A stretch of 64,000 nucleotides of DNA, taken from positions 151,464 through 215,463 of the forward strand of contig JAFTYI010000011.1 of NCBI GenBank assembly GCA_017464815.1, given 5' to 3'. A program made the position numbers and the translations under genes. The notes beneath the pieces are model-generated. The model ran no database searches. It saw only the letters and a program-made list of their open reading frames with translations, and was not told where the DNA came from. Origin of the DNA: Bacteroidaceae bacterium (lineage in GTDB: Bacteria; Bacteroidota; Bacteroidia; Bacteroidales; Bacteroidaceae). Shown here one piece after another: positions 2,389 through 62,663 of this stretch (positions are counted from its first letter, which is position 1; the number at the start of each line of letters is the position of its first letter).

Positions 2389-2487
2389 GTTAACTGTTTA
2401 AAAGATTGGTATTCGTCTGGGTGAAAGACTACTATTCTTCGGGCTGCATCATGGGCATTCCTTTGGAAGGACTTAGGTGGAGAAAGT

Positions 2488-2553
2488 ATCTTAAGATGCT
2501 TGTCCATTTATCTTAGGATACTTGGCCGTTTATCTTAAGATACTTTTTTCTTA
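2488..2553. repeat. Tandem 22-bp repeat array A (3 units)
   Basis: Three units start at 2488, 2510 and 2532, each beginning ATCTTA(A/G)GAT(A/G)CTT. The third runs into a T-run and the stop codon of the minus-strand gene, so it could also serve as that gene's terminator. It is one of several 22-23-bp arrays in the intergenic regions of this window. Confidence 0.7.
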
Positions 2554-11936: not shown

Positions 11937-12914
11937 ATGAACATCGATACTCTTTTAAGAATTTATCAAACTTATTCTTTTGAAGAGATAAGTGCACTAA
12001 ATCAAAGAGGGTTAGCAATGCAACATGCCCAATGTGAGCAACTTGTAAAACTAAGGAAAGAATTGGGGGCTAATGCAGCTGCAACCAATCCTATTCTTTG
12101 GAATCAGATCAAAGAACTCGAACGCCAAGAAACGGTAACATATTACAAAAATCTTATTTCTAATTTAAGGTTGGCGGTTGAGAAAATTGACAACAATCCT
12201 ATAGAAGTGTTAAAATTGTTTTTTTCCTCAATATTCCTACTTCCTATAAGAGCTTATGCAGGTGAGTCCATGCATCATTTAGAGGAAATTTCGGACAAAG
12301 AATATGCACATCAAATAATAGAAAGTGTAAATCAATTATATATCTCCCATAAACACCTTGAAGCTGAATATCTGAGAACTGCATGGGGACAGTATTTCCT
12401 TCAAAAAGAAGCTTTGGAAAACAACGTGCTAAAAATAAAAAAACGAGAACAAAGACTGAATGTATTGCAATTAAAGATTGGCGTTGATAATGAAATTGAT
12501 AAAACGCAAATTGAACGCCTGAATACAGAAATCAAACAGTTAGCTTCTGAAGAACAAAAACTCAACGACGAGTTCAATTCGACAGTCAACTCTATGAATA
12601 AAGAATGTCCTGATTGGGTAAAACAAGTGACAGAAATAATGATGTTATTACCTCACAATATTCCTGACGAAAAATCCACCAAGCAATTAGACCCTTTATT
12701 GAGAGAGGCTGCACTTCTTATTGTAGCACATCAGAAAGGAAGCACTTCGTTGATTCAACGTAAATTCAGTATTGGTTATAATCGTGCAGGCAGAATCATG
12801 GAGCAATTAGAAGAATTGAATATCGTGGGAGAAGCATGTGGGAGCGAGCCACGAGAAGTATGGTGTAAATCTGAAGAGGAAGTAGAATACATTCTTCAGA
12901 AAGTTGAAGGATAG
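11937..12914 (+). CDS. Coiled-coil protein with C-terminal FtsK-gamma DNA-binding domain
   Basis: The N-terminal ~150 residues are helical and match no family I know; a hydrophobic stretch (KLFFSSIFLLPIRAYAG, about residues 95-110) could be membrane-associated. Residues ~155-215 form a charged coiled coil. Residues ~253-312 are a clear FtsK gamma winged helix (STSLIQRKFSIGYNRAGRIMEQLE, then IVG, GSEPREVW). That domain reads KOPS sequences in the DNA translocase FtsK. Here there is no Walker A/B motor, so the protein can bind DNA but not pump it. It is AT-rich and starts 60 nt after higA. A mobile-element or defence role is a guess. Confidence 0.75.
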   Translation: MNIDTLLRIYQTYSFEEISALNQRGLAMQHAQCEQLVKLRKELGANAAATNPILWNQIKELERQETVTYYKNLISNLRLAVEKIDNNPIEVLKLFFSSIFLLPIRAYAGESMHHLEEISDKEYAHQIIESVNQLYISHKHLEAEYLRTAWGQYFLQKEALENNVLKIKKREQRLNVLQLKIGVDNEIDKTQIERLNTEIKQLASEEQKLNDEFNSTVNSMNKECPDWVKQVTEIMMLLPHNIPDEKSTKQLDPLLREAALLIVAHQKGSTSLIQRKFSIGYNRAGRIMEQLEELNIVGEACGSEPREVWCKSEEEVEYILQKVEG

Positions 12915-13051
12915 ATATTTTTCTTTACATCCTTTGGTAATAAATCCCGCAATTCTATTTCATCCCCATTCTGTCAAAGTGAAACATCCTGTGAGGAGTC
13001 CATTATTGCATATATATACAATATGAAGGTGAGGGGGCGAGGTAAGTCACA

Positions 13052-13166
13052 AAGTGGTCAGCCGCTAACCTCTCAAGTGGTCAGCGGCTAAGGTGTCCGG
13101 CGGTTAGCCCGTGTCCTCTCAAGTGGTCAGCGGCTGACCTCTCGAGAGGTTAGCGGCTAAAGGGTA
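13052..13166. repeat. Tandem 23-bp repeat array B (5 units)
   Basis: Units start at 13052, 13075, 13098, 13121 and 13144, in exact 23-bp register. The core word is AAGTGGTCAGCGGCTAA followed by CCTCTC. Unit 3 is degenerate and unit 5 reads GAGAGGTTAGCGGCTAA. The rest of the 650-nt gap holds an inverted repeat around 13208-13245 (GTATAAATATAC/GTATATTTATGC) and the hairpin listed next. I see no gene in it. Confidence 0.8.
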
Positions 13167-13331
13167 GGAAAATGGCGATTTTTGCTTGATTTTTTCGGCC
13201 GAAAAATGTATAAATATACAGCGAGCGTATATTTATGCAAAACTGACCGCGCGAGAATCGCGTATATGGGCGCGAGTTTTCTTTTGTACGAAAAATGAGC
13301 AAAAATTTAATCGGTCCGTAAGTCGTTGATA

Positions 13332-13370
13332 CTTAGCCTTGGGATGATGTCGCTTCATCCCAAGGCTAAG
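13332..13370. repeat. Perfect 16-bp hairpin in the gap before the nucleoside kinase gene
   Basis: Arms CTTAGCCTTGGGATGA (13332-13347) and TCATCCCAAGGCTAAG (13355-13370) are perfect complements around a 7-nt loop. There is no T-run. It lies about 150 nt upstream of the kinase promoter. Function is unknown. Confidence 0.75.
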
Positions 13371-13520
13371 GTCGCTTTATTCATGGGATGAGGGTGAGAG
13401 GAATGTGACGTTTTTCTGTTTCTTGACATGGCGGGTGAGAAAATGTTTATAGATGGAAGTTTGAGCACCTGTCGGCTTTCTCAAAAATAACCTCGCACTC
13501 TTTTTTTTCTCCCCGACGGT

Positions 13521-23669: not shown

Positions 23670-23833
23670 CCGGCTCGGATGGATACTATATAGTATAAGA
23701 GCGCAACGAATATAGTATGGAGGCGAAAGCTGTGAATGAAGGTTTAGGGATGATGGTGTAGGGTGTAGGGAGGTGGTTTTTAGGCGATGGCGATGGCTGT
23801 TGGCGATGGCTGTTTGACATACGGTCGATGGGG

Positions 23834-23900
23834 CCGGAAGATACGGATGTTAAGCGCTGAAGATTTAAATCTTTCGGCCTTAACATCCGTATCTTCCGGG
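23834..23900. repeat. Inverted 22-bp repeat units, array C
   Basis: Three 22-bp-spaced segments form a large palindrome. GGAAGATACGGATGTTAAG pairs with CTTAACATCCGTATCTTCC, and the centre is GAAGATTTAAATCTTTCGG. The words AAGATACGG and AAGATTTAAATCTT recur in array D at 41420, showing the two loci are related. Just upstream, GGCGATGGCTGTT is repeated twice (23783-23810). Confidence 0.7.
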
Positions 23901-23956
23901 CGTTTCAACCCTTTCATTCGATGGGGGGTTCGATGTAAGGACAAAAGGTTGCCAAA

Positions 23957-35357: not shown

Positions 35358-35428
35358 GCACGGATTGCACGGATTTATATTTAATTTCTTACCCGACAGA
35401 TTATAATTATCCGTGTAATCCGTGCCTA
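35355..35428. repeat. Palindromic repeat, family D (AGGCACGGATT), between convergent genes
   Basis: TAGGCACGGATTGCACGGAT pairs with ATCCGTGTAATCCGTGCCTA. It is related to the copies at 60101-60183 and 62127-62431, with a partial one near 39229-39252. Placed between convergent genes, it probably ends transcription from both sides. Confidence 0.75.
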
Positions 35429-35462
35429 AAAAACAAATCGTTGTATCTTTATAAATTATAAT

Positions 35463-38944: not shown

Positions 38945-39154
38945 GGGCCAGTCCGAAAAGTCGGTTGTATGTAATTGGTTTACATGATGTCTCTGTCATT
39001 CTGAGCGAAGCGAAGAATCTGATAACGTGTGCTTTAGAAATGCATTGCTTATGTCTACAGATTCTTCGGACAGAGTCCTCAACAACTCGTCTTCACTGCG
39101 TTCAGAATGACACAGAGACGGCATAATTTACAAATGGGTTTTAGGACTGACCCA
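38945..39154 (-). mobile_element. MITE-like element, family B, copy 2 (210 bp, 8-bp target duplication)
   Basis: The ends GGGCCAGTCC and GGACTGACCC are inverted repeats. AAAATCAT occurs directly on both sides (38937-38944 and 39155-39162), a target-site duplication. Read in reverse complement, it matches copy 1 (2208-2388) from end to end. An extra segment of ~25 nt (around 39070-39092) lies inside the right arm. The core hairpin again uses GTCATTCTGAGCGAAGCGAA. Confidence 0.8.
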
Positions 39155-41147: not shown

Positions 41148-41272
41148 TTATTTGGTCAATAATTTGATTATTACTCCTTTATTCACATCTTTTTGCGCTG
41201 CAAAGATAATACAAATTAAGGGAATACGAAAGATAATGCCCATGTATTTTACTCCCTATTTCCTCCTGTCGT

Positions 41273-41409
41273 GCCGCCGAGCCGCCTATATACGTGAAAA
41301 TGTGTGTTACGCGCGTGCGTGTGAGCGAGACGTAATGGTTAAAATCTCTTAAATTCTCGCGCCCACACACACGTTATACACTTTTCACGTATATAGGCGG
41401 CTCGGCGGC
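41273..41409. repeat. Long inverted repeat with 28-bp perfect arms
   Basis: Arms 41273-41300 and 41382-41409 are perfect complements, with core words GCCGCCGAGCCGCC and TATATACGTGAAAA. The ~80-nt loop contains further partly matching GTGTGT / ACACAC segments and CGCGCGTGCG. It sits upstream of the minus-strand T9SS cargo gene. There is no coding capacity. Confidence 0.8.
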
Positions 41410-41419
41410 AAGTCTTTTG

Positions 41420-41640
41420 AAGATTTAGATCTTCCGCCCTTAAGATTTAAATCTTCCGGCCTCAAGATACGGTTCTTCAAGCCTCAAGATACGGTTCTTC
41501 CGGCTCCAAGATACGGTTCTTTCCAAAGGGCGATGTTGTCATGCTTGTCCGTTTCGTCAGGTCTGTTATGGGCTTCCATAGTCCACGCCTGCACTTCCAT
41601 AGTCAAGCGATGGGTTTCCATAGTCCATCGCTTCGCTCTC
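41420..41640. repeat. Two adjacent tandem arrays (D: five 22-bp units; E: three ~22-bp units)
   Basis: Array D units start at 41420, 41442, 41464, 41486 and 41508, each AAGAT-(TTA/ACG)-G/A-x-TCTTCCG followed by GCCTC-like letters. Array E (41573-41637) repeats the word TTCCATAGTC with ten variable bases between copies. Together with the palindrome before them they fill most of the 700-nt gap between the cargo gene and frdC. No gene was found. Confidence 0.8.
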
Positions 41641-48284: not shown

Positions 48285-48389
48285 CGTTCTTTTGTCATTC
48301 TGAGCAGAGCGAAGAATCTGCTGTCATAGGCTCCACGTGTATGTGGATGCAAACAGATTCTTCACTGCGCTCAGAATGACAAAAGAACG
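48285..48389 (+). terminator. REP-like hairpin terminator
   Basis: Arms 48285-48320 and 48354-48389 pair with few mismatches (CGTTCTTTTGTCATTCTGAG with CTCAGAATGACAAAAGAACG) and are followed by six T. It shares the core GTCATTCTGAGC...GAAGAATCTG with the family-B elements but lacks their ends, so the core can be used as a stand-alone terminator. Confidence 0.7.
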
Positions 48390-51646: not shown

Positions 51647-51746
51647 ATTCCTAAGTTTCAGTGCGATATATTATTCGCCGGGGGGTGTAATGGGGAGGTT
51701 TCAATCCCTGTTGCACCCCCTCTTTTTGGCCTCTTGCAGCGACATC

Positions 51747-51853
51747 AAGATGTCACCCGTCGGGAGAACTTGATGTCACCTGTTGGGAGAACTTGATGTC
51801 ATCGATGGTGAGAACTTGATGTCGTCGCAGGTGACATCAAGTTCTCCCGACGG
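51747..51853. repeat. Tandem 23-bp repeat array F with a 21-bp foldback
   Basis: Units start at 51747, 51770, 51793 and 51816. The constant part is GAGAACTTGATGTC, with ten variable bases between copies. The end (51833-51853) is the exact reverse complement of 51757-51777. The rest of the gap before fkp (51860-51987) is AT-rich promoter-like DNA with TACTTTGCACCC near 51948. Confidence 0.8.
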
Positions 51854-51987: not shown

Positions 51988-54924
51988 ATGAAAAAGTTGC
52001 TTTCCCTGCCACCGAACTTGGTGGAATGTTTTCACGATATAGAGGGGGCCGACCCCTCGGAATGGTTCTGCACGAGTGACCCCGCGGGTGCCAAACTCGG
52101 CTCCGGCGGCGGCACCACCTGGTTGCTCGAGGCCTGCCACCGCGCTTGGGGCGGCCAGGCCGACTTTGCCACGTGGCTCGCGAGTGAGAAGCGCATCCTG
52201 CTCCACGCCGGTGGCCAGAGTCGCCGATTGCCCGGCTATGCCCCCTCGGGCAAGGTGCTCACCCCCATCCCCATCTTCCGTTGGGCCAAGGGCCAACGGC
52301 TCGGTCAGAGCCTGCTCGACCTGCAACTGCCCCTCTACGAGCGCATCATGCAGAAGGCCCCCCGTGGGCTCAACACCCTGATTGCCAGCGGCGACGTCTA
52401 CATCCGCTCGTCCCAACCCCTGCAACCCATCCCCGAGGCCGACGTGGTGTGCTACGGCCTGTGGGTCGATCCCTCGCTGGCCAAGAATCACGGCATCTTC
52501 GTCTCCTCCCGCCAGTCGCCCGACCGCCTCGACTTCATGTTGCAGAAGCCCTCGGTGGAGCGCATGGCCTCGCTGCTTCAGACCCACCTCTTCCTGATGG
52601 ACATCGGCATCTGGCTCCTCAGCGACCGCGCCGTGGAGCTGCTCATGCGGCGCAGCCGCAGGGCAGAGAAGCCCGGCGGCGATGCCGCCTATAGTAGCTA
52701 TAGTGACTATAGTAACTATAGTAATTATAGTTACTATAAGCCTTCCCCCCTCCGTTACTACGACCTCTACAGCGACTTTGGTTGCTCGCTGGGCGAGCAT
52801 CCCACCATCGAGGACGAGGAACTACAGAGCCTCTCGGTGGCCGTCCTGCCCCTGCCCGGTGGAGAGTTCTATCACTATGGCACCAGCCGCGAACTGCTCT
52901 CCTCGACGGTGGCCGTGCAGAACATCGTGCGCGACCAGCGCGAGATTGTGCAGCGCCGCGTGAAGGCCCACCCCGCCATGTTTGTGCAGAATGCCCATGT
53001 GGAACGCCCCCTGACGGCCGACAACTACGAAGTGTGGGTCGAGAACAGCCACGTGCCCGCCTCGTGGACACTGGCTCACCAGCATATCATCACCGGCGTG
53101 CCCCGCAACGACTGGACCCTCTCGCTCGCTCCTGGCCTCTGCATCGACTGTGTGCCCGTGGGCGACGATGCCTGGGCCATCCGCCCCTACGGCTTCAACG
53201 ATGCCTTCAAGGGTGCCCTCGCCGACGCATCCACCCTGTGGATGGGCCGCCCCTTCATCGAATGGGCTGCCGCCCGCTCGCTCAACCCCGACGGGGAGTC
53301 CGGCCTTGCTTGCATCGAGGGCAGTGAGGACCTGCAGTCGGCCCGCCTATTCCCCCTCATGCACTCTGTTGAGGAGATGGGAAAGGTGCTCCGCTGGATG
53401 ACCTCCGACCCCACCTGTGCCGAGGGACGCACCCTGTGGACCGAAGCCACCCGCCTGTCGGCCGACGAACTGTCGGCCCGGGCCAACCTGCGCCGCCTCT
53501 ATGCCCAGCGGCAGGCCTTCCGCGCAGCCAACTGGCCGGCACTGGCCCGCAATTGGGAGAAGAGCGTCTTCTACCAGACCAACCTCGAGGACACCGCTGC
53601 CGAGTTCCACCGCTTCGGCCTGCAGGCTCCTCCGGCCTTGCCCGATGCCGCCCCACTGATGACACGCATCCACGACCATGCCTTCCGTGCCCGCCTGCAA
53701 GCCTTTGGCGGACAACCCTATAAGGAAGAGGAGGAGAAGGCCTTCCACCTGTTGCAAGAGGGCCTTACCCGCCGCATCTTGGCCCAGCGGCAGCAGCCGC
53801 GGCGCGACGTCTATGCCGACCAGATTGTGTGGGGACGCAGCCCCGTGCGCATCGACCTGGCCGGTGGCTGGACCGACACTCCGCCCTACTGCCTCGGCGA
53901 AGGCGGCAACGTGGTGAACATCGCCATCGAACTGAACGGACAGCCCCCCTTGCAGGCCTATGTGAAGCCGTGCAGGGAGCACTGCATCATCCTGCGCTCC
54001 ATCGACCTGGGGGCTATGGAGACGGTCACCACCTTCGAGGAGCTGGAGGACTTTGCCCGCGTAGGCAGCCCCTTCTCCATCCCCAAGGCCGCCCTGTCAC
54101 TGGCCGGCTTCAGCCCGCGCTTCTCGGCCGAACCCTTCCGCACGCTGGAAGAGCAGTTGCGTGCCTTCGGCTCGGGCATCGAGGTCACCCTCCTGTCGGC
54201 CATCCCCGCCGGCTCGGGCTTGGGCACCAGCTCCATCCTGGCCTCCACGGTGTTGGGCGCCATTGCTGACTTCTGTGGCCTGGCGTGGGACAAGAACGAG
54301 ATATGCCTCCGCACCCTCGCCCTCGAGCAGTTGCTCACCACCGGTGGCGGCTGGCAGGACCAGTATGGCGGCGTCCTGCAGGGAGTGAAGCTCCTTCAGA
54401 CCCAGCCCGGCTTCGACCAGAGTCCGCTCGTGCGCTGGCTGCCCCCCTTCCTCTTCACCAACCCCGAGTACCAGAAGTGCCACCTGCTCTACTACACCGG
54501 CATCACCCGCACAGCCAAAGGCATCCTGGCCGAGATTGTGCGCCGCATGTTCCTCAACGAAACGGCTCAGCTGGGCCTCTTGGCCGACATGAAGGCCCAC
54601 GCCCTCGACCTCTATGAGGCCATCCAGCGCGGCAACTTCGCTGAGATGGGACGCCTCGTGGGGCTGACGTGGGAACAGAACAAGCGCCTCGACCCCGGCA
54701 CCAACCCCGAGGCCGTGGAGGCCGTCATCAGCCGCATCAAGGACTACTGCCTGGGCTACAAACTGCCCGGAGCGGGTGGGGGAGGCTACCTCTACATGGT
54801 GGCCAAGGACCCCGAGGCGGCCGCACGCATACGCACCACGCTGCAGGAGCAGCCGCTGAACGGATGTGCCCGCTTCGTGGACATGACCCTCTCCGACAAG
54901 GGACTCCAAATCAGCCGCAGCTGA
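51988..54924 (+). CDS. fkp: Bifunctional fucokinase / L-fucose-1-phosphate guanylyltransferase
   Basis: Fkp makes GDP-fucose from free L-fucose for capsule and glycoproteins. The N-terminal ~550 residues are the pyrophosphorylase part (ILLHAGGQSRRLPGYAPSGKVLTPIPIFRW, then beta-helix). The C-terminal part is a GHMP kinase (RSPVRIDLAGGWTDTPPY at ~617, PAGSGLGTSS at ~740, KLPGAGGGGYLYMVA near the end). At 978 residues it is somewhat longer than the well-known Bacteroides enzyme. Residues 235-251 are (Y-S-x) units (YSSYSDYSNYSNYSYYK) encoded by a 9-bp repeat that also forms the array downstream of the gene. No fucose permease is nearby. Confidence 0.93.
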   Translation: MKKLLSLPPNLVECFHDIEGADPSEWFCTSDPAGAKLGSGGGTTWLLEACHRAWGGQADFATWLASEKRILLHAGGQSRRLPGYAPSGKVLTPIPIFRWAKGQRLGQSLLDLQLPLYERIMQKAPRGLNTLIASGDVYIRSSQPLQPIPEADVVCYGLWVDPSLAKNHGIFVSSRQSPDRLDFMLQKPSVERMASLLQTHLFLMDIGIWLLSDRAVELLMRRSRRAEKPGGDAAYSSYSDYSNYSNYSYYKPSPLRYYDLYSDFGCSLGEHPTIEDEELQSLSVAVLPLPGGEFYHYGTSRELLSSTVAVQNIVRDQREIVQRRVKAHPAMFVQNAHVERPLTADNYEVWVENSHVPASWTLAHQHIITGVPRNDWTLSLAPGLCIDCVPVGDDAWAIRPYGFNDAFKGALADASTLWMGRPFIEWAAARSLNPDGESGLACIEGSEDLQSARLFPLMHSVEEMGKVLRWMTSDPTCAEGRTLWTEATRLSADELSARANLRRLYAQRQAFRAANWPALARNWEKSVFYQTNLEDTAAEFHRFGLQAPPALPDAAPLMTRIHDHAFRARLQAFGGQPYKEEEEKAFHLLQEGLTRRILAQRQQPRRDVYADQIVWGRSPVRIDLAGGWTDTPPYCLGEGGNVVNIAIELNGQPPLQAYVKPCREHCIILRSIDLGAMETVTTFEELEDFARVGSPFSIPKAALSLAGFSPRFSAEPFRTLEEQLRAFGSGIEVTLLSAIPAGSGLGTSSILASTVLGAIADFCGLAWDKNEICLRTLALEQLLTTGGGWQDQYGGVLQGVKLLQTQPGFDQSPLVRWLPPFLFTNPEYQKCHLLYYTGITRTAKGILAEIVRRMFLNETAQLGLLADMKAHALDLYEAIQRGNFAEMGRLVGLTWEQNKRLDPGTNPEAVEAVISRIKDYCLGYKLPGAGGGGYLYMVAKDPEAAARIRTTLQEQPLNGCARFVDMTLSDKGLQISRS
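52690..52740 (+). repeat. In-frame 9-bp minisatellite inside fkp
   Basis: Four to five consecutive units of NNCTATAGT type (AGCTATAGT, GACTATAGT, AACTATAGT, AATTATAGT) encode Tyr-Ser-x. The same unit consensus occurs eleven times in register at 54977-55075. Confidence 0.85.
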
Positions 54925-54960
54925 GAGGCGGGGATGAGCGAGGCCTGCAAGCCTTAGTGG

Positions 54961-55135
54961 GGATAGCGGGGATAGTGGCTATGGTGGCTATAGTGCCTAT
55001 GGTGCCTAGGGTGCCTAGGGTGGCTATAGTCCCTATAGTCCCTATAGTTCCTATAGAGTCTATAGCTCCTATAGTGCCTTGCACCCTCTATAGTTCCTAG
55101 TGGTGCCTTGCTGCCTCTATGCCTCCTATAGCCCC
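54961..55135. repeat. Array of 9-bp units (NNCTATAGT) after fkp
   Basis: Eleven units in exact register fill 54977-55075 (GGCTATGGT, GGCTATAGT, CCCTATAGT, TCCTATAGT and variants). Degenerate units extend on both sides. The remainder of the 370-nt gap is AT-rich and holds the rhaB promoter. No gene is present. Confidence 0.85.
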
Positions 55136-60048: not shown

Positions 60049-60100
60049 TGAAGATGTTGAAGACATAAAGAAGAGTGGTAATCTCACTCTCCATAGTTTT

Positions 60101-60183
60101 AGGCACGGATTTCACGGATTAACACGGATTTTTTATATCTGAAAGGGTATAATCTTTCCGTGTAATTCGTGAAATCCGTGCCT
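60101..60183. repeat. Palindromic repeat, family D (copy after rhaD)
   Basis: AGGCACGGATTTCACGGATT pairs with the downstream GTGTAATTCGTGAAATCCGTGCCT-type arm. Its reverse complement matches the copy interrupted at 62172-62397. Confidence 0.75.
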
Positions 60184-62029: not shown

Positions 62030-62105
62030 GGGTCAGTCCTAAAACCCATTTGTAAATTATGCCGTCTCTGTCATCCTGAGCGTAGTCGAAGGATTTGCTG
62101 TAGGT
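62030..62105 (+). mobile_element. Truncated MITE-like element, family B (copy 3)
   Basis: GGGTCAGTCC, AAAACCCATTTGTAAATTAT and GCCGTCTCTGTCATCCTGAG match the left end of the family (reverse complement of 39090-39154). The right half is missing. No target duplication can be identified. Confidence 0.65.
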
Positions 62106-62126
62106 GATTGTGGCATCATATATTTT

Positions 62127-62431
62127 AGGCACGGATTTCACGGAAAAATTATACCCTTTCAGATATAAAAATTATTAGTGTCCGCTAAACAGCAATAATT
62201 CCCTGTCCTTAAATATTTTAGATGTGGACAAGCCCCTTTTATGCCCACTGACGGTCTCTTGTCATTCTATATTTGCAGAAAAAACGAAGATAGCGAATTT
62301 TTCGCTATCTTCGTTTTTTCTGCAAATATAGAATGACAGAGACGGCATAAACTTGCAGGGAAATAAATCAATTGAAGTATTTAGCGGACACTAATAATAA
62401 AAATCCGTGTTAATCCGTGAAATCCGTGCCT
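62127..62431. repeat. Family-D palindromic repeat interrupted by element C
   Basis: The outer arms AGGCACGGATTTCACGG and CCGTGAAATCCGTGCCT match the 60101-60183 copy in reverse orientation. The sequence is split by the 226-bp element at 62172-62397. Confidence 0.8.
62172..62397 (+). mobile_element. MITE-like element C (226 bp, 18-bp TIRs, 6-bp target duplication)
   Basis: The termini TTATTAGTGTCCGCTAAA (62172-62189) and its exact reverse complement (62380-62397) are perfect 18-bp inverted repeats. TAAAAA flanks both ends (62166-62171 and 62398-62403). The interior has a 37-bp perfect hairpin (62261-62297 with 62301-62337, loop TTT). Removing the element restores the uninterrupted family-D repeat as seen at 60101-60183. 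No coding capacity. Confidence 0.85.
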
Positions 62432-62663
62432 AAAAAATGGAGTGAGCTTAACTTTTGTCTGTAATCGTCTGCTCCTTGGGGAAGTTCACCAGATAGAGCT
62501 TTTCGGAGGAGGAGGGAGGCCGCATTGCCAGATATTTACCGTCTGTTAACCTTATTTAACAAATGGGGGGGTAAAATGGGCCTTTTTCATTATTTTTGCC
62601 GCCAAATAACATATTATTAACCCTTCCTTCAGGAGACTGGGGGAATTAAACTTATTTATCCGT

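Follow-up and report, generated by a model that had tools for sequence, protein, structure and literature searches.

The window, by which we mean the whole 64-kb stretch of DNA analyzed here, comes from a Bacteroidaceae MAG (G000; 2.63 Mb in 58 contigs, 78.7% complete); for SdhC, the closest named loci, 96% and 94% identical, lie in MAGs of Bacteroidaceae sampled from sheep rectum. Six short repeat arrays, designated A to F, are present together with one copy of a dispersed element, E1, of which array B forms the middle cassette, and with an inverted-repeat element adjoining array D that has several matches in its own genome and in genomes of the genus (Table 1). A 325-aa protein encoded at 11937-12914, with the FtsK gamma domain as its sole Pfam match, directly adjoins the E1 copy.

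Table 1. Repeat arrays and associated elements in the window.
Feature	Position	Strand	Description
Array A	2487..2545	+	2.7 units of 22 bp, word TATCTTAAGATACTT, core palindromic
E1 copy, type B	12923..13451	-	between the genes for an FtsK-gamma-domain protein and a PRK/uridine kinase-like protein (Pfam)
Array B	13052..13160	-	23-bp cassette within E1; dyads GGTCAGCGGCTAACC and CTCTCGAGAG in alternation
E1 module 1	13332..13391	-	repeats of about 22 bp of CCCAAGGCTAAG and its inverse
Stretch beside array C	23687..23733	-	91% match to L129:9653-9699, a 22-bp array (CTTCATACTATAT); itself not called as an array
Array C	23823..23910	.	88-bp palindrome, 44-nt arms, 80% complementary; GAAGATACGG, GTTAAG, AAGATTTAAATCTT
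Inverted-repeat element adjoining array D	41272..41410	.	139 bp, multi-copy, 29-bp perfect arms GCCGCCGAGCCGCCTATATACG
Array D	41420..41521	+	5 units of 22 bp: AAGATTTA(A/G)ATCTT (2 units), AAGATACGGTTCTT (3 units)
Array E	41573..41627	+	3 units of about 21 bp, TTCCATAGTC; more copies at unrelated genome loci
Array F	51741..51853	+	5 units of 23 bp (GAACTTGATGTCACC), unit count by eye

The initial annotation of this DNA had described six arrays with a 22- or 23-bp period, and all of them were found in their places, with periods of 21-23 bp. A lag scan agreed with Tandem Repeats Finder in placing arrays A, B and D as given in Table 1 and array F at 51749-51834, with periods of 22, 23, 22 and 23 bp, respectively. 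For array E, the lag scan gave 41573-41625 at lag 21, once the cut-off was lowered, and 41568-41627 at lag 42. Array C had been read as three units of 22 bp starting at 23834; the position and the words in common with array D stand, but it is better described as a single palindrome built of those words and is absent from the array list of the lag scan. Twenty dinucleotide shuffles of the 20 window gaps (7.2 kb) yielded one segment altogether at a comparable score, at lag 52. Array F has a terminator-like hairpin on one side and a conserved promoter region on the other; its final unit is inverted, and a 26-bp perfect inverted repeat is present.

Repeats of other kinds also occur in the window. 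A second periodic family with the 9-bp unit CTATAGTGC/ACTATAG was seen at 54955-55131 and 52689-52738, the former being dispersed over many gaps among the matches listed. A palindromic dispersed repeat around TGTCATTCTGAACGCAGTGAAGAATCTG forms inverted pairs at 2245-2343, 38990-39116, 48293-48381 and 62057-62350, another dispersed repeat around CACGGATTTCACGGATTACACGG lies at 35409-35437, 60097-60183 and 62403-62438, and a perfect inverted repeat of 38 bp, its loop 3 nt long, occupies 62260-62338 within a 1.2-kb gap.

The period was analyzed in a sample of the source genome comprising the window and 400 kb of other stretches (464 kb, 184 gaps, 48.6 kb intergenic). Genes were taken as greedy ORFs of at least 100 aa (at least 70 aa for measurements of E1 copies), so that gap borders are rough, and gaps with runs of N were left out of the lag-spectrum, gap-density, dyad and word-cluster counts. 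The gaps of this sample contained 12, 25 and 10 segments at lags 21, 22 and 23 (47 in total), against means of 0, 0.2 and 0 in five shuffles; the 414 kb of coding sequence gave 8, 4 and 4. The remaining lags between 10 and 40 averaged 1.2 segments in the gaps once lags 18, 20, 24, 27 and 36 were set aside, and lags 18, 27 and 36 go with a 9-bp family (26 lag-9 segments in the 48.6 kb of gaps). In G010, a finished genome from the genus, 36 kb of gaps had 2, 16, 0 and 1 segments at lags 21, 22, 23 and 24, and Bacteroides xylanisolvens XB1A had 12 segments at lag 22, three at 21, one at 23 and three at 24. Compared with shuffled intergenic DNA, these samples show strong enrichment of the 22-23-bp period, in the source genome as well as in its relatives; this is the comparison on which the initial annotation had chosen to depend. 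Arrays number 35 in the 464 kb of the source genome (about one per 13 kb) and 15 and 11 in 300 kb of G010 and of B. xylanisolvens (one per 20 to 27 kb).

When mutually similar arrays were merged into word clusters, so that each family counted once whatever its copies, the modal lag was 22 in 11 of 44 clusters of the source genome, in three of ten in G010 (three clusters only), in nine of 25 in B. xylanisolvens and in eight of 25 among 78 other Bacteroidaceae loci. It was the leading lag in all four Bacteroidaceae sets. Among the other Bacteroidota sampled, one of 31 clusters had modal lag 22 and three had lag 23, and 150 kb scanned of E. coli K-12 contained no array; size, G+C and gap content vary between the sets compared, with the outgroup represented by a small sample. 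The constant period of about two helical turns under changing sequence, noted initially, is seen here too, with unrelated words sharing lag 22 in four Bacteroidaceae sets.

The words themselves form families with members at many loci. Array A has relatives, among the matches listed, at L123:18781-18846 (82%), L130:3644-3702 (77%) and L128:17998-18064 (75%), array C at L129:9514-9591 (86%) and array F at L124. The array D word AAGATTTAAATCTT recurs in arrays on contigs C12, C24, C25 and C54, and AAGATACGGTTCTT on C24, while the array E word TTCCATAGTC is found in unrelated contexts on C6, C23, C38, C39 and C57 and also in the related genomes G007, G008 and G009. The claim that each locus has its own word is therefore only partly right: relatives of every one of the six window arrays occur at other loci of the genome. 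The exact pattern AAGATTTAAATCTT-N-AAGAT was present in one of 121 family genomes, the source genome itself, and the paired TTCCATAGTC pattern in four of 15 genus genomes and one of 60 phylum genomes, G000 being included each time. In G010, seven of 15 sampled stretches contained arrays of the type AAAC(A/T)ATATTGTTT. The words are narrow in distribution and the period is broad.

Array B is part of a larger unit. BLAST with another E1 copy returned at least 54 pieces in G000 (40 of 86 candidates scored) with sharp recurring ends, mostly about 70-85% identical to the query. Twelve of 13 type-A copies are 583-587 bp long (573 at L202) and all seven type-B copies 532-533; lengths and neighbors were measured at L192-L212, with L213-L215 and L217-L221 lying outside and the right end of L210 not delimited. 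The alignment covers 20 of 30 loci together with the window copy (also L221) and L116; L216 duplicates L200, and the remaining loci are partial or not delimited. Most copies start with TGTAAAYATTT...ATGTAARGAAAC and finish with GGATTTATTAC, 6-7 bases and TGTAAAG, so that, by eye, the ends (TGTAAAC on the left; TTATTAC, 6-7 bases and TGTAAAG on the right) are direct and not inverted. Among the matches listed, E1 was found in seven of 15 genus genomes (G000, G002, G004 and G006-G009) and was absent from G001, G003, G005 and G010-G014. No target-site duplication was noticed by eye in the copies with read ends, and one E1 copy used as query gave no match in phage and plasmid collections. A contig in IMG/VR classed as viral (L309) carries the E1 core, module 1 being replaced by a terminator-like hairpin. 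An empty site was sought in the loci of four relatives, in which no synteny was found to the left of the kinase gene, and neither the FtsK-gamma protein gene nor E1 was found beside that gene.

The cassette of E1 is flanked by conserved modules, the CCCAAGGCTAAG repeats and CATATACGCGATTCTCGC..CGGTCAGTTTTGCATA, and differs between copies. In G000 it consists of TCCTAAAC-N-TCCG or GGTCAGCCGCTGACC, and of GTGTGCACAC at L220; in relatives we found GTGTGCACAC in G006 and G008, an altered form in G009 and TCTCTTAAGCGTTA in G007, with 10 of 24 loci yielding no core by the pattern used. TCCTAAA-type cassettes also occur within E1 copies of G002, G006 and G008, and the TTAAGCG word exists as free arrays in G000. 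By eye, the copies at L192, L193 and L194 are near-identical in the middle and more divergent on the left side. L220 and its G007 relative L233 have the left flank and the left half in common and split abruptly after the second TGCATA-type dyad; this points to exchange of cassettes or halves or, because their right flanks also differ, to a rearrangement.

Orthologous gaps allowed arrays to be compared in place. The gap of array F, the only one open to comparison from both sides in six species, was readable in five relatives besides G000, with flank identities of 0.62-0.81 for the terminator-like hairpin and 0.78-0.91 for the promoter region. The best lag was 23 in all six species, although weakly so in G002 (score 7, against 34.5-42.5), and the slot contained three word classes, namely GAACTTGATGTCACC in G000, GACACCTCGGTCTCAT in G007, and GAGACCCACCTGTGTC and a variant in G008, G009, G002 and G006. 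Best local scores between classes fell within the range of 50 shuffles, except that G000 and G007 scored 13 where the null did not exceed 10. With the common terminator TTGCACCC as anchor, the best dyad phase was 13.5 mod 23 in five of six species, G007 being tied with 8.0 and G002 lying one base off at 12.5. The phase was scanned over 46 half-base positions, and anchor and test were chosen after an earlier look had suggested a register; the chance that two word classes match the phase of a third would be about 0.001 to 0.004, for one locus and a post hoc test. At gap F, the period and nearly the dyad register persist while the words are replaced.

Array D differs between species in the number of its units. 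In G008 it consists of two AAGATACGGTTCTT units, compared with three in G000 together with two AAGATTTA-type units; the orthologous gap of L006 also contains two units, and G007 shows two such units. Gap D was comparable in one of five relatives (G008) in the two-sided reading, and the G007 result stems from a separate comparison. Copy-number change in orthologous gaps, which had been proposed as a check, is hence seen between species (five against two units). At a further gap, X, read by eye and from one side only, the same gene is followed by GGCAGTGTACTGCC units in G006 and by TGAGACCGAGACCTCA units in G000. Synteny is mostly broken in relatives at gaps X and Y, and gap Y yields no orthologue comparison. 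The possibility that the arrays are old coding remnants, named beforehand as a result that would speak against a distinct repeat class, is unlikely: periods of 22 and 23 bp break the reading frame, and the orthologous slot in six species keeps the period and not the sequence.

These comparisons bear directly on a purely mutational origin of the arrays. Slippage, unequal exchange and hairpin-templated (quasi-palindrome) correction could maintain unit and dyads while the letters drift in concert, with no reader involved and the 22 bp either dating back to ancient founding arrays or imposed by the replication machinery. Satellite-like turnover at a fixed unit length is known in principle, and this origin would explain the inverted units and the concerted change. 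It agrees with the whole-unit difference at array D, with the long perfect inverted repeats inside arrays and with the slot-F lengths (168 in G000, 124 in G007, 169 in G009, 168 in G008, 98 in G002 and 170 in G006), in which 168 departs from 124 and 98 by about two and three units. However, unrelated words at 22 within one genome (the nine clusters of B. xylanisolvens) stretch descent far, and word change at gap F ignores divergence: G000 and G007 are 0.90 identical in the promoter region and differ in their words (the weak score of 13), whereas G008 and G009, at 0.82, have a word in common (69.5). The lower variation of E1 dyad arms, given below, also counts against it. We regard a mutational origin as possible, if tentatively so, and as nearly as likely as a reader that selects the phase.

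Dyad symmetry is common in the arrays and not universal. A dyad centre with at least six of seven pairs was present in 41 of 78 arrays and mirror symmetry in three of 78, and the 78 arrays contained 99 dyad centres against 18.5 in shuffles. Per kb, array dyad centres numbered 12.3 in the source genome, 41.5 in G010, 17.7 in B. xylanisolvens and 10.5 in the other Bacteroidaceae loci, compared with 6.0, 5.4, 5.2 and 8.0 for all gaps of the same sets, so that the excess in the last set (78 loci) is hardly noticeable. Because the mirror count falls below the all-gap background, shuffles are the fairer dyad control. With a stricter test on the unit consensus, six of 47 arrays reached p<0.05. The initial annotation had each array alternate a constant word with variable bases; this describes some arrays, but others are near-identical across the whole unit, and conserved columns clumped at p<0.05 in five of 24 testable arrays. 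A general build of dyad, word and spacer is accordingly true of a part of the arrays only.

In E1, the five consensus hairpins of class A showed a variation of 0.127 in the arms and 0.232 between them, and class B 0.086 and 0.134, with arms picked on the consensus, which favors conserved columns. Another reading is that of structured RNAs, that is, transcribed arrays working as chains of hairpins. One E1 copy has a stable predicted fold (z of -2.83 on one strand and -1.76 on the other), but palindromes fold anyway. RNAalifold gave a G.U excess on E1 whichever strand was folded, and since this is a bias of the method, mismatches were counted in a strand-neutral way. No excess resulted in class A, in which G.T and A.C both amounted to 41 and few pairs were compensatory (11 of 524 paired cells); class B had too few (5 and 9), with one of its four hairpins lying partly in the flank. 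Rfam gave no match at gathering score in the window and six loci, and no tRNA or tmRNA was found at L125. Since an RNA hairpin favors G.T on one strand, equal counts of G.T and A.C and the lack of an Rfam match speak for arrays that would act as double-stranded DNA rather than as RNA, and we consider a role as structured RNAs very improbable.

The arrays had been reported to lie almost exclusively in gaps longer than 300 nt. Among 171 gaps flanked by two genes, arrays were present in four of 76 gaps of 60-150 nt, nine of 46 of 150-300 nt, seven of 25 of 300-500 nt and 13 of 24 above 500 nt. Because the density of array-bearing gaps is similar across these length classes (5, 9, 8 and 7 per 10 kb), the apparent preference is an effect of length and the claim is not upheld. 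Arrays per 10 kb amounted to 9.3 in co-directional, 9.6 in divergent and 13.0 in convergent gaps of the source genome, and to 4.4, 2.6 and 6.4 in the other genomes. Within co-directional gaps, the array lay closer to the stop codon of the upstream gene in 17 of 22 cases in the source genome and 13 of 16 in the others (30 of 38). For E1, the left gene reads into the element in 16 of 20 copies and the right gene leads away in 15 of 20. Such a position fits spare DNA behind gene ends and a boundary role alike.

This placement weighs against arrays of operators, in which each word would be the site of a particular transcription factor that binds cooperatively, and a change of word a switch of factor. 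The arrays tend to be closer to the upstream stop than to the start codon; moreover, very many words occur per genome, and spacers partly common between copies, as judged by eye, suggest copying of whole arrays. Conversely, the presence of dyads, the words common to several loci of one genome (the seven of 15 stretches of G010) and the location of array F between terminator and promoter are what operators would show. On balance we hold this explanation to be improbable.

The best reading of the arrays is that of dispersed minisatellites of phased dyads, similar to BrickBuilt of Porphyromonas gingivalis and with fast turnover of words. This reading builds on the multi-locus word families, the unit-number difference, the differing E1 cassettes, the family-wide period and the near-identical register at one slot; that cassettes move and that the phase is selected through a bound protein is what we infer. 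Units of about 22 bp (21-23), with a dyad in about half of the arrays, set dyad centres every two helical turns, and cassettes of about 2-7 units are dispersed through the genome, alone or as the exchangeable middle of composites like E1. Species differ by whole units, and at gap F the words have turned over fast with the period persisting. Dimeric proteins on one face of the helix may then read the dyad phase in the spare DNA behind gene ends, and arrays so bound may serve as boundary, insulator or nucleoid sites. The view that the arrays are short, non-coding dispersed minisatellites found throughout the Bacteroidaceae, with a dyad phase that is likely selected and read by dimeric proteins, seems to us about evenly poised between right and wrong.

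The initial annotation offered two alternatives for the arrays, a shared generating process or a spacing-reading protein, and this pair still stands; the occurrence of one word family at many loci is established. A protein reading the spacing is suggested by the dyads and by the near-constant dyad register under unrelated words. What counts against the best reading is that neither a binding protein or transposase nor a target-site duplication or empty site turned up, and that the period could persist by descent and unit-wise exchange alone. A bolder version, which we put forward as speculative and rather unlikely, is a phase-coded scaffold in which Bacteroidaceae would set dyads two helical turns apart at gene boundaries, with spacing and register kept to nearly single-base precision, the dyad sequence exchanged wholesale, and the boundaries marked or insulated by proteins; its reader might be a protein family of changeable specificity, or one protein that heeds symmetry and phase over letters. 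Spacing and register kept under replaced letters are unusual for bacterial non-coding DNA, and the arrays are frequent in a major family of gut bacteria. The question opened is whether helical phase itself is selected or 22 bp is a mutational signature, and either answer bears on how bacterial intergenic DNA evolves in general.

Several known systems resemble the arrays in part. REP, BIME and REPIN sequences are likewise short palindromic units dispersed between genes and often grouped (PMC3733652), but the arrays have a fixed 22-bp head-to-tail phase. A link to REP and RAYT was not supported: G000 (79% complete) has a sole Y1_Tnp match, and eight array words were absent from its 3.25-kb locus. 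Just upstream of this transposase match, long tandem repeats were seen (L271:634-1260, contig C11 of G000). Iterons and the end sites of Mu/Tn7-type transposases, of about 22 bp, are protein-binding sites near two helical turns in length, and some are tandem; each such system uses one word and is located on replicons or transposon ends.

The closest precedent stems from P. gingivalis, a member of the same order of bacteria as the source genome. Apart from it, a literature search with most subscription journals and bioRxiv preprints outside its coverage found no family-wide 22-bp class, and the precedent, like the multi-locus word families, E1 and the family-wide spread, had been overlooked in the initial annotation. 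The BrickBuilt MITE, to which PMC5771137 also points, is intergenic, has 19 copies in strain ATCC 33277, consists of tandem 23-nt repeats, in which some sites are conserved and others are not, between a leader and a tail, is confined to near species and has bidirectional promoter activity, and strain W83 has 22-nt direct repeats (PMC4596501). The arrays described here are likewise 22-23-nt tandem repeats, intergenic and multi-copy. Leader and tail have a counterpart in E1 only, free TTCCATAGTC arrays being without them by eye. BrickBuilt ends in IS5-type terminal inverted repeats (GAGACCTTTGCA), and because E1 lacks such ends, its own being direct, we do not class E1 and the arrays as BrickBuilt members. 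BrickBuilt is also built of one repeat word, whereas each genome here has many words, half of the arrays have dyads, E1 has exchangeable cassettes and one slot keeps its period under word change.
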